A stretch of 47,715 bases of DNA, taken from positions 1 to 47,715 of the forward strand of contig JAEEKI010000005.1 of NCBI GenBank assembly GCA_016282375.1, written 5' to 3'. The stretch comes from Caryophanales bacterium. Its GTDB lineage: Bacteria; Bacillota_I; Bacilli_A; RF39; UBA660. The notes beneath the pieces were generated by a model, which saw only the letters and a list, made by a program, of their open reading frames with translations, made no database searches and was not told the DNA's origin. The position numbers were made by a program, and so were the translations under genes. This document shows, piece by piece, positions 6,704 to 35,896 of this stretch (the stretch's first letter is position 1; the number at the start of each line of letters is the position of its first letter).

Positions 6704-7264
6704 ATGAAAAAGAAAAAAATTATTATCTATGCTTGCTTAATAGTTTTACTAAATATATTATCTTTTAGAAGTATTTATAATAAAAAAGAATTCTATATAA
6801 CAGATAATGAGTATCTTTACGATGAAGCTGTAGACTATTTAATAAAAAATGATACTAATCCCGAAAAAGTTAAAGAACGTTATAAAATGTTTATTGATTA
6901 TGAAGGGTTTGGCATTACTGAAAATAAAATGTATCACTATGTTTATATGTGGATAAATGAAGAGTCTTACTATGTTGAAGATAATAAAATTATCATCAGT
7001 TCTGGAAGTTCCATGGCTTATCGTTTTACATTTAATATAAATGATAAGAAAATAATTAGTTATGATATTCCTAAAGATGGAAGTGAATATACCTCTTCGA
7101 TTAAAAAAATGTTTCCAAGAGACATAGCAAATAAAGTTTTAAAGTATCAATATAATACTAATAAAATTGAAGAATCAGTTCATGAATATTACGCTGATTT
7201 AGAAGATCAAAATATATATAATTTAAGAAATGATAAATATGTTAAAATTGGAACATTAGAATAA
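6704..7264 (+). CDS. Hypothetical exported or membrane-anchored protein
   Basis: 186 residues with one N-terminal hydrophobic helix after a lysine cluster (MKKKKIIIYACLIVLLNILSF), probably a signal anchor; the remainder is hydrophilic, rich in Tyr, Asn and Lys, and should be extracytoplasmic. I do not recognise the family. It lies alone between the exporter terminator and the surface-protein gene. There is no lipobox and no cysteine pair in the mature part. Confidence 0.6.
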   Translation: MKKKKIIIYACLIVLLNILSFRSIYNKKEFYITDNEYLYDEAVDYLIKNDTNPEKVKERYKMFIDYEGFGITENKMYHYVYMWINEESYYVEDNKIIISSGSSMAYRFTFNINDKKIISYDIPKDGSEYTSSIKKMFPRDIANKVLKYQYNTNKIEESVHEYYADLEDQNIYNLRNDKYVKIGTLE

Positions 7265-7320
7265 AACATTATATTATTATTAATTGCATGCTATAATTAA
7301 TATATAAGATAGGAGTCCAT

Positions 7321-8442
7321 ATGAAAAGAAACAATATAATCTTATTAACAATAGCAATAATTACATTATTAGTAACAATAATCGGAGCAACATATGCATA
7401 CTTTGCAACAGGTAATATGAATATAACAAATGTAGCCAATGCCAATACCGTAACTGAAAGAAATAATATGGTGTTTGATACCCTAGGTGGAGGAATGCAA
7501 TTAAATATAACAGCAGCGAATATGGTGGAAGCTAAGCAAGGTAATGTAGCAGTTGAGAATAATACCACATTAACCGTTAATTTTACCGCCAATACTGATT
7601 ATAGTATGGTATGTACATATGATATTATCTATGAATGGACCTCAAGTGATAAATATACAGTGCATACTAGTGGTGTAACAGGTAATGAGTTTACTATTCA
7701 AGGAACATTGGCAAATAATGCACACGTATCACAAGGAACCAATAGTATAAGTAGTGAAACTGACCTTTCAACATTAACTTATGATAATTATAGTGCTGTC
7801 GTCGTAACAGGTGCTCAAATTGATGGAACAGGAAGTAGTACAAGTACAGCAGTATGGACATTAACAAGTAAGTTTTATAATGTCAATGCCGATCAAAGTA
7901 CATTATCAGGAAAAACATATGCTGGAAGATTTAAGGTAGCAAATGTATCATGTGTAGCAGGAGCAGCAAGTCCATCAGACTTAATAGGTTATTGGTTTGA
8001 TAGTACGACATGTACTTCTTATAATCCGTGTACACATCCAAATTATGGTGGAACATTACAAAGTAGTGGAGCAGCAACAAATCATAATGTATATATAAGC
8101 CAAGATAGTAGCAAGTATTATGCATGTGCAACAATCCAAGGCCATGAAATATGTTTAAGTCAACCATATACCCAATATGGATTAATTGACCATGCAATAA
8201 ATAGTAGTTTCACATCAGAGCAAAAAGCCAGTGCCAAACAAGCAATATATCAAGCATTTATCGATGCTGGAATAACAATAGATATAGACAATGATTGCGG
8301 CGCTAACGGCAGCTTCGCTAACTGCCATGTGGGCAAACTCTACTGTATTGTGATGAACGTAGGTTATGTCTTCTGTAACGATAGCGCTGCGAGCGAGACC
8401 TGTGGAGTCGACGCCTCTGGTCATGCCCGTTGTGAATCGTAG
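7321..8442 (+). CDS. SipW/TasA-type surface protein with Cys-rich, variable-looking C-terminus
   Basis: 373 residues. The N-terminus is a SipW-dependent type signal (hydrophobic helix ending ATYAYFATG). Residues ~1-215 are a close paralogue of the 225-residue protein at 35219: shared NITNVAN, NNMVF, TAANM, YSMVCTYDI.YEWTS and KFYNVNADQ..LSGK.Y stretches. Residues ~217-325 form an extra domain (SPSDLIGYWF.., YYACATIQGHEICL). From Cys326 the codon use and composition change sharply to GC-rich, with six cysteines at 326, 335, 342, 352, 361 and 371 in a C-x-V-x3-G-x-V-x-C-type ladder. That tail resembles a DGR variable region. Start has GGAG upstream. The role is probably surface display or binding of a changing ligand (inference). 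Confidence 0.75.
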   Translation: MKRNNIILLTIAIITLLVTIIGATYAYFATGNMNITNVANANTVTERNNMVFDTLGGGMQLNITAANMVEAKQGNVAVENNTTLTVNFTANTDYSMVCTYDIIYEWTSSDKYTVHTSGVTGNEFTIQGTLANNAHVSQGTNSISSETDLSTLTYDNYSAVVVTGAQIDGTGSSTSTAVWTLTSKFYNVNADQSTLSGKTYAGRFKVANVSCVAGAASPSDLIGYWFDSTTCTSYNPCTHPNYGGTLQSSGAATNHNVYISQDSSKYYACATIQGHEICLSQPYTQYGLIDHAINSSFTSEQKASAKQAIYQAFIDAGITIDIDNDCGANGSFANCHVGKLYCIVMNVGYVFCNDSAASETCGVDASGHARCES

Positions 8443-8485
8443 GGTGGCTAAGTCTAGTGTTTGGTTGTGTGGGCGGCCTTCTGAA
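8296..8485 (+). other. Candidate DGR variable region with IMH-like tail
   Basis: G+C jumps well above the flanking DNA at 8296 and stays high past the stop codon (8440-8442) to about 8485. The coding part alternates fixed positions (Cys, Val, Gly) with irregular ones whose codons (ATT, ATG, AAC, TAT, TTC, AGC, GCG, GAG, ACC) are consistent with mutated AAN codons. The noncoding tail contains GTGTGGGCGGCC, as expected for a GC-rich initiation-of-mutagenic-homing element. There is no template repeat or reverse transcriptase in the window, so the DGR core would be elsewhere. Confidence 0.5.
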
Positions 8486-8505
8486 CATCTTAATATCTTG
8501 AATCT

Positions 8506-8542
8506 AATTTTGCCGATAGGCAAAATTGAAGGCCTTTAGGCC
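8506..8542. other. Two hairpins downstream of the candidate variable region
   Basis: Perfect 9-bp stem AATTTTGCC/GGCAAAATT with a GATA tetraloop (8506-8527), then GGCC-TTTA-GGCC (8531-8542). Some DGR targets carry a short-stem, 4-nt-loop hairpin just after the variable region that aids homing. No long T-run follows, so a terminator role is less obvious. Confidence 0.55.
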
Positions 8543-8585
8543 GAATGTATGCGTAAGCGTAGTGTAGGCACAAAAAAATTCTATC

Positions 8586-8614
8586 TAGACATGAAATGGA
8601 ACCTATGTTACAAT
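8586..8614 (+). promoter_or_regulatory. Probable pyrBI promoter
   Basis: TAGACA (8586-8591), a 17-bp spacer and TACAAT (8609-8614). The start would lie about 12 nt before the pyrB ATG, leaving no room for a PyrR-type attenuator leader. Confidence 0.5.
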
Positions 8615-8632
8615 TTTGTGAAAGGATGGAAA

Positions 8633-9562
8633 ATGAGAGAGAAAAAGAAGAAAAATTTAATTGACATAAAAGATTTATCAGTCAAAGAAATTGATGACTT
8701 AATTAAAGTAGCTAATGATATCATTGAGCATAAGGAGAAGTATTCTCACAAATGTGATGGTAAAATATTAGCTACTTTATTTTTTGAGCCAAGTACAAGA
8801 ACAAGACTTAGTTTTGAATCAGCAATGTTACGTTTAGGAGGCAAAGTTTTAGGATTTTCTGATAGTGCTTCCTCATCGACAACGAAAGGTGAAACGCTTG
8901 CCGATACAGTATGTGTTGTAAGTGGTTACGCGGATATTATTGTAATGCGGCATCCGAAAGAAGGTGCACCAGTCGTTGCGTCAAAAAGAAGCTTAGTACC
9001 TATTATTAATGCTGGGGATGGTGGGCATAATCATCCAACGCAAACCCTAACTGATTTATTAACTATTAGTCGAGAAAAAGGAAGATTAGATAATCTGACA
9101 ATTGGTTTATGTGGCGACTTAAAGTTTGGTCGAACCATACATTCTTTGATTACAGCGATGTCTAGATATAAAAATATTAAGTTTATTCTAATATCACCAG
9201 ATGAATTAAAACTACCTGAATATGTTATTACTGAAGTATTAGAAAAAAATCATATTGAATATATTGAAACCAATAGTATGGAAGAATATATGAATGAGTT
9301 AGATGTTTTATACATGACAAGAGTACAAAAAGAAAGATTTTTAAATGAAGCCGAATATGTTCGTTTAAAAGACTATTATATTTTAGATAAAAGTAAATTA
9401 GAAACTGCAAAAGAAGATTTATGTATCTTACATCCCCTTCCAAGGGTAAATGAAATAAGTACAGAAATCGATGATGATAAAAGAGCAAAGTATTTTGAAC
9501 AAGCTTATAATGGTGTTTATATTCGGATGGCTCTTATCTTAAAACTATTGGAGGTCTTATAA
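8633..9562 (+). CDS. pyrB: Aspartate carbamoyltransferase, catalytic subunit
   Basis: 309 residues, usual for PyrB. It joins carbamoyl phosphate and aspartate, the first committed step of pyrimidine synthesis. The carbamoyl-phosphate motif S54-T-R-T-R58 (in [12 protein letters not shown]) and HPLPRVNEI near residue 265 are present, along with the aspartate-loop lysine region (STTKGET). ATG 8633 was chosen because AAAGGATGG lies just upstream and the upstream extension is unlike PyrB. Stop and pyrI start overlap (TAATG). The regulatory partner next door implies an allosteric class B holoenzyme. Confidence 0.95.
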
Positions 9563-35218: not shown

Positions 35219-35896
35219 ATGGACGAAAATCAAAAAAATGAAAATATGAACAGTAAAAACTTAGCGTTTATGGTTTTAGCAGTAATTGCTTTAGTTGCCA
35301 TTGTAGGTATGGCCACATATGCATACTTTTCAACCGGTACTTTAAATATTACTAATGTTGCTAATTTAAATGCTACATCAGAACAAAATAATATGGTATT
35401 TACCACTAGAGGCGGAAGTATGACATTAAATGTAACCGCTGCAAATATGGCACAAGCTGTAAATGGTACTATGGCTGCTAATAATACAACGACATTATAT
35501 GTTGATTTCCAAGCTAACACATCATATTCTATGGTATGTACATATGACATTCAATATGAATGGACAAGCACAGATCGTTATACAGCTCATACAGCTGGTG
35601 TATCTGCTAATGAGTTTACCATTCAAGCTACTATGACGACTGGTGCTAACGTTAATCAAGGAACGAATACTATCAGTACAGAAAAAGACTTAGCTACAGC
35701 CGTTGGCTCAACTAATCCAAAGAATGTTGTAACAGGAGCTAGAATTAGTAGTACTGGTACAACTACAACTACTGCAACATGGACAATACAAACTAAGTTT
35801 TATAACGTTAATGCTGATCAAACAGCTTTGTCAGGAAAACAATATGATGCTAAATTCTCGGTTAAAAATGTTTCGTGTACAAGCGGAACAGTATAA
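35219..35896 (+). CDS. SipW/TasA-type surface protein
   Basis: 225 residues. After a short hydrophilic start comes a SipW-dependent type signal (helix ending ATYAYFSTG), then one secreted β-rich domain very like residues 40-215 of the protein at 7321 (shared NITNVAN, NNMVF, TAANM, KFYNVNADQ). It ends at SCTSGTV, exactly where the other protein gains its extra domain and Cys-rich tail. Probably a fibre or matrix subunit of the TasA/CalY type. Own promoter (TTGCAA 35161, TATAAT 35185) and AAGGAG; terminator follows. Confidence 0.75.
   Translation: MDENQKNENMNSKNLAFMVLAVIALVAIVGMATYAYFSTGTLNITNVANLNATSEQNNMVFTTRGGSMTLNVTAANMAQAVNGTMAANNTTTLYVDFQANTSYSMVCTYDIQYEWTSTDRYTAHTAGVSANEFTIQATMTTGANVNQGTNTISTEKDLATAVGSTNPKNVVTGARISSTGTTTTTATWTIQTKFYNVNADQTALSGKQYDAKFSVKNVSCTSGTV

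Follow-up and report, generated by a model that had tools for sequence, protein, structure and literature searches.

Adenine-linked hypervariable ends in a family of cysteine-rich surface proteins from a rumen-type Bacilli genome: candidate targets of a many-target diversity-generating retroelement

What makes a surface-protein gene of ordinary AT-rich composition turn abruptly GC-rich over its last 48 codons, and why should those codons carry six evenly spaced cysteines? The question arises from a 47,715-nucleotide stretch of DNA (hereafter the window), contig 9 of a 24-contig assembly of a small, rumen-type Caryophanales bacterium (1,083,921 bases, estimated 85% complete). A forward-strand open reading frame (ORF) at 7321..8442 translates into a surface protein of 373 amino acids, whose paralogues were recovered by both protein and DNA searches. 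Across 8300-8499, GC content in the window climbs from 0.33-0.35 to 0.51-0.55, before falling back by ~8600; within the gene, the final 48 codons have a GC content of 0.54 versus 0.33 for the adjoining upstream stretch. Cysteine codons at 8296, 8323, 8344, 8374, 8401 and 8431 are separated by 9, 7, 10, 9 and 10 codons, and GC-richness runs past the TAG stop (8440-8442) to ~8485, with GTGTGGGCGGCC at 8467-8478. The original prediction, made from the letters of the window, took this layout for a variable region of a diversity-generating retroelement (DGR) acting from elsewhere; the compositional jump, the cysteine spacing and the GC-rich signal beyond the stop were all borne out, as was the observation that a paralogue at 35219 has no such end (35219..35896, forward strand; its 225-residue translation holds the N-terminal half only, with a 57% protein match over query residues 3-219). 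The best reading of the evidence is a DGR family with many targets, built on a new scaffold and either served in trans by a core missing from the assembly or left behind by a core since lost. From the sequence patterns described below, we regard it as highly probable that the gene ends are DGR-made variable regions, whether or not the system is still active.

The gene belongs to a family of ~40 in this genome. A DNA search of the bacterium's own genome returned 43 matches, ~20 of them including the GC-rich end, whilst a protein search returned ~49, some 40 of which had the C-terminal domain. In 18 distinct copies, scattered through the genome, the GC-rich end is followed by a conserved block, CATCTTAATATCTTGAATCTAATTTTG, and this recurrence means that the GC-rich, cysteine-bearing end is not a product of chance; two further copies carry decayed versions of end and block. 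Several contigs of the assembly terminate within these repeats, which suggests that the repeated variable ends broke the assembly. Two genes with differing upstream sequence have an identical variable core (L013:1-228, L015:2-229, L011:1501-1774 and L109:1-230), and the contig starts that match it lead into two different tail types, reflecting either ends that recombined recently or a repeat that the assembly failed to resolve.

The manner in which these ends differ from one another was examined in an alignment of 19 sequences, comprising the 18 own-genome copies and one end from the sister species Tb.RUG.7; as the copies are related, P values that assume independent columns and cells should be read as guides, not as exact figures. 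The variable region (8296..8458, forward strand), delimited from the column table, its statistics and an in-genome control set, corresponds to a six-cysteine beta-meander whose hypervariable codons take the form NNC or NNT: any of the four bases is found at positions 1 and 2, and position 3 is almost always C or T. Mean entropy at codon positions 1/2/3 is 0.93/0.96/0.65 bits there, against 0.40/0.40/0.81 bits, the usual order, just upstream in the 19 copies. Adenine is the commonest base in 30 of 58 columns with entropy ≥1 versus 5 of 83 low-entropy columns (P = 7e-10), a link that is absent upstream of the variable region when the same test is applied (P = 0.15), and columns with at least 25% adenine average 1.45 bits where the others average 0.58 (P = 1e-14). 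Across 23 hypervariable codons, 260 of 430 third-base cells (60%) hold C, compared with 102 of 729 (14%) upstream (P = 8e-61). Amino-acid selection alone would not account for a third base so fixed at C in an AT-rich genome. Adenine-linked variation also persists 3' of the stop, to ~8456 (8440-8458, 19 columns only; P = 0.03), where no amino-acid selection acts; across the whole of 8440-8485 the test is not significant because the tail types differ. Judged indirectly, by this column pattern, variation appears to fall at the sites that would match template adenines, and the implied template would be rich in AAC codons. Known DGR templates are likewise AAC-rich.

Downstream of the variable region lies what resembles a DGR target signal. 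The GC-rich, adenine-poor segment at 8459..8486 (forward strand) occurs as at least 8 sequence types among the copies and, from the alignment and the list of tails, is a candidate for the initiation of mutagenic homing (IMH) element, a role assigned by likeness to known DGRs; in position and composition the gene end matches a C-terminal variable repeat that closes on a GC-rich putative IMH. It gives way to a nearly invariant block, ATCTTAATATCTTGAATCTAATTTTG, at 8487..8512 (forward strand), with entropy near 0 in the 19 sequences and presence in 18 of 18 own-genome copies with GC-rich ends. The inverted-repeat scan then identified a perfect 9-bp inverted repeat, AATTTTGCC-GATA-GGCAAAATT, at 8506..8527 (forward strand), a candidate DGR target hairpin or cruciform that sits ~18 bp beyond the variable repeat; DNA folding of 8487-8560 gave z = -3.4. 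The span of 8296-8485 first proposed for the element does contain the GC-rich end, but is too short, as the shared block extends further 3', to this hairpin. In phage DGR targets, such structures have a 7-10 bp stem and a 4-nt GRNA loop and lie 4-34 bp from the variable repeat (PMC3240598). The 9-bp stem, GATA loop and ~18 bp distance seen here fit that rule, although the stem is less GC-rich than the published phage examples, and the hairpin, which the original prediction had not mentioned, adds to the case for a DGR variable region. The loop is of GRNA type (GATA, GACA or GAAA) in ~11 of 18 copies and TTTA-like or inverted (TATC) in the remainder, where a T-run commonly follows the stem; the hairpin may therefore also terminate transcription. 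Further 3', the alignment shows a secondary repeat element, GGCCTTTAGGCCGAATG...GTGTAGGCACA (8528..8572, forward strand), in roughly half of the copies; the others have a T-run at this point. No Rfam family matched within 7200-9000.

Homologous ends within the same genome provide a control. GC content is 0.47-0.59 in every one of the 16 complete ends that carry the downstream block, whereas 15 of the 17 homologous ends classed as having no GC-rich tail also have no block, and most of these 17 are AT-rich (0.30-0.42) with low third-position C. One exception has a GC content of 0.49 and still carries the block, and the two tail-less ends that retain it look decayed. With the block present beside GC-rich ends and mostly absent beside AT-rich homologues, the pattern goes with the downstream DNA signal and not with the protein domain.

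The domain that varies in this way is not one that DGRs are known for. Its conserved first half (8062..8295, forward strand), comprising beta hairpins and a long helix according to alignments A2 and A4 and the AlphaFold2 model, is common to variable and non-variable paralogues. The model of the C-terminal domain, built from an alignment of 20 paralogue sequences, is confident (pLDDT 92, pTM 0.84) and predicts three beta strands, a long helix and, last, a six-strand meander on which the variable residues lie. Neither Pfam nor PDB sequences matched the domain, a Foldseek search of the model against the PDB and a viral library gave no match at E <= 0.001, and there was no C-type lectin among the 50 best listed PDB structure matches. 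As modelled, the domain does not appear to have a C-type lectin (CLec) fold. A large survey found that annotated DGR variable regions have C-type lectin folds (PMC8144416), and the predicted scaffold is unlike the annotated targets surveyed so far. At the other end of the protein, weak matches and inspection of the sequence suggest a SipW-type (TasA/camelysin-like) signal peptide in the hydrophobic segment at 7321..7404 (forward strand), which ends in TYAYF; paralogue P0002 has a weak, below-cut-off NCBIfam match to TIGR04088, and Foldseek with the full model gave a weak match to the TasA fibre 8aur (E = 0.04). This weak resemblance to SipW-type, TasA-like proteins makes it probable that the cell displays the variable domain on its outside; by analogy, the copies would likely serve as a set of binding surfaces directed at phages, host glycans or neighbours. 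Long paralogues (L146, L148 and L149) have leucine-rich-type repeats (SVTSIGDYAF...TSITIP) attached to the same N-terminal half, and the secreted N-terminus therefore seems to serve as a general carrier of varied display domains. Some proteins combine a lectin-type domain (..VRPVLYL) with the cysteine-rich one (L115:4783-7071, L101:864-3122 and L119), and in L119 the cysteine-rich domain is AT-rich, with neither GC-rich end nor block.

If a DGR is responsible, an AAC-rich template copy would be transcribed and its transcript copied by an error-prone reverse transcriptase (RT) that misreads only template adenines; the resulting cDNA would overwrite the 3' part of the target gene as far as the GC-rich, IMH-like segment that shortly precedes the hairpin. 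Some 18 dispersed genes would share this target signal, each displaying a six-cysteine beta-meander on a secreted, TasA-like surface protein, and with the scaffold fixed and ~20 side chains randomised the outcome would be a repertoire of surface binding sites. That an RT of this kind made the variable ends we infer from their sequence; the proteins themselves, by analogy, would bind ligands at the cell surface. The template repeats (TRs) would lie in the missing 15% of the genome or on another replicon, or have been lost, and the core as a whole may similarly sit in the missing part or be gone.

Relatives in the genus do carry DGR machinery, a point in favour of the DGR reading. RTs with the [LIV]GxxxSQ signature occur in G002 (C1), G005 (C9) and G009 (C39), with IGNM[ST]SQ and YMDD-type motifs. 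In G002, the RT is preceded by an ORF with a weak match to bAvd, and upstream of both lies a surface protein (G002:C1:3821-4456) that shares the N-terminal half of the window protein. The same locus (L038, G002:C1:5580-9248) combines the Avd-like ORF and DGR RT with an upstream AAC-rich template of lectin type (..SPNSGNANNVFNVNSTGNVNNNNANNTNGVRP..), and other genes of G002, such as L069, have lectin-type ends that match it. The DGRs of these three genomes resemble the window family in targets that share its N-terminal half (seen in G002), and differ in having lectin-type templates and targets (..VRPVLYL); no cysteine-rich hypervariable end was found in them. One window-type end (L118), with the same block, is present in the sister species Tb.RUG.7. 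That species also has a canonical DGR with a target end adjoining its template (L141:760-1115, in G060:C29, Bacillales bacterium Tb.RUG.7), in which 17 of 23 differences over 118 bases fall at template adenines and the others lie near the 3' end; its RT was rejected as the missing core, since it serves that DGR and its own template. The AT-rich, non-variable form of the domain is kept both in the bacterium's own genome and in the relative RGIG7022.

How far, then, can the DGR reading be pressed? Its most ambitious form is a live, genome-wide network of ~18 targets, in which a non-lectin, cysteine-rich scaffold derived from a non-variable domain of the same surface proteins is diversified by several templates in trans, a form that we put forward only tentatively, as somewhat short of probable. 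Several results weigh against the DGR reading itself. No RT was found in the window or in the remaining assembly, either with Pfam RVT_1 (PF00078) at E <= 1 or with a relative's RT and the PHROG RT family phrog_1423, and the assembly likewise yielded no bAvd and no gene-less, template-like copy; the only RT found in Tb.RUG.7 belongs to its canonical and different DGR. At least 8 tail types would predict several templates, none of which has been seen, and columns other than those of adenine vary too, with ~16% minority cells in the main group, which exceeds what one live template would leave. No template repeat was found in viral contigs or among 386 family genomes (few candidates scored), and phages, plasmids and viral contigs searched for the window protein or its signals gave nothing. 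A partial match near C1:48685 proved to be a whole paralogous gene, and two viral-contig matches were chance similarity in unrelated DNA. Avd or bAvd is usual but not universal in DGRs. The original prediction, having noted that the window holds no RT, looked to the wider genome for one and for a near-copy of the variable end; neither turned up there. Its central idea, a remote DGR variable region with adenine-linked variation and an IMH-like tail, is nevertheless strongly supported by comparing the 18 own-genome copies and the sister-species end. As the assembly is 85% complete, the empty search for RT and template is inconclusive rather than refuting.

The same absence of a core would follow if the ends were DGR-made and the RT and templates have since been lost, leaving 18 genes as a frozen repertoire reshuffled by recombination only. 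We consider such a relict possible, if on balance doubtful. Treponema denticola strains are known that keep 2-6 target genes without RT or TR (PMC4891356), some copies here look decayed (L101:5895-6197 and L111), divergence away from adenine is appreciable, and two gene ends combine an identical core with different tails. Yet paralogues agree better at silent positions in the ends than at those just upstream (0.65 v 0.81 bits), a difference suggestive of repeated resetting from templates, and 15% of the genome is unseen. Dispensing with reverse transcription altogether, homologous recombination across conserved flanks might swap the ends among silent cassettes and the ~18 expressed copies. The shared flanks on both sides, the mosaic cores and tails (L008, L109) and the identical core in two genes would suit gene conversion of this kind, but on its own this would account for neither the fixing of C or T at the third base nor the focus of variation on adenine-linked codon positions 1 and 2, and a DNA search of the own genome found no gene-less silent cassettes; we judge it improbable. 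More improbable still is that duplicated genes for a surface-exposed antigen domain diverged under ordinary positive selection: a surface-protein family with variable residues between conserved cysteines is what such selection would produce, but it leaves unexplained the fixed silent bases, the variation past the stop, the GC jump and the coupling to the downstream block and hairpin, and the third-position pattern and the control paralogues already go most of the way to refuting it.

Should the many-target DGR reading prove true, a cysteine-rich, non-lectin variable scaffold would mean that DGR machinery can diversify other folds, and would offer protein engineers a compact new scaffold. The non-variable homologues in the same genome constitute a built-in control for the capture of a new domain by a DGR, and a live network would furnish a commensal Bacilli lineage with a variable surface repertoire.

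Among known systems, the DGR of Bordetella phage BPP-1, with its target Mtd, shares with the window family a C-terminal variable repeat, adenine-linked variation, a GC-rich 3' segment and then a GRNA-loop hairpin (PMC3240598). The window family differs in that it has yielded no RT, Avd or template, its targets are many and scattered, and its variable domain is cysteine-rich with no C-type lectin match. The TvpA-type DGRs of T. denticola similarly serve several remote chromosomal surface-protein targets and in some strains have no RT or TR; they differ in having 2-7 targets per strain with an FGE-sulfatase/C-type lectin domain (PMC4891356), against ~18 targets and another domain here. The multi-locus DGRs of Thiohalocapsa PB-PSB1 likewise reach many targets in one genome, and for some of these action in trans is the best explanation, but they comprise nine loci with 15 CLec targets, ties to conflict systems and cores that are present (PMC10907252). 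With ~18 dispersed targets in a genome of 1.1 Mb, the window family would rank among the densest arrays in the literature compared here, alongside the 15 of Thiohalocapsa and the up to 7 of T. denticola.
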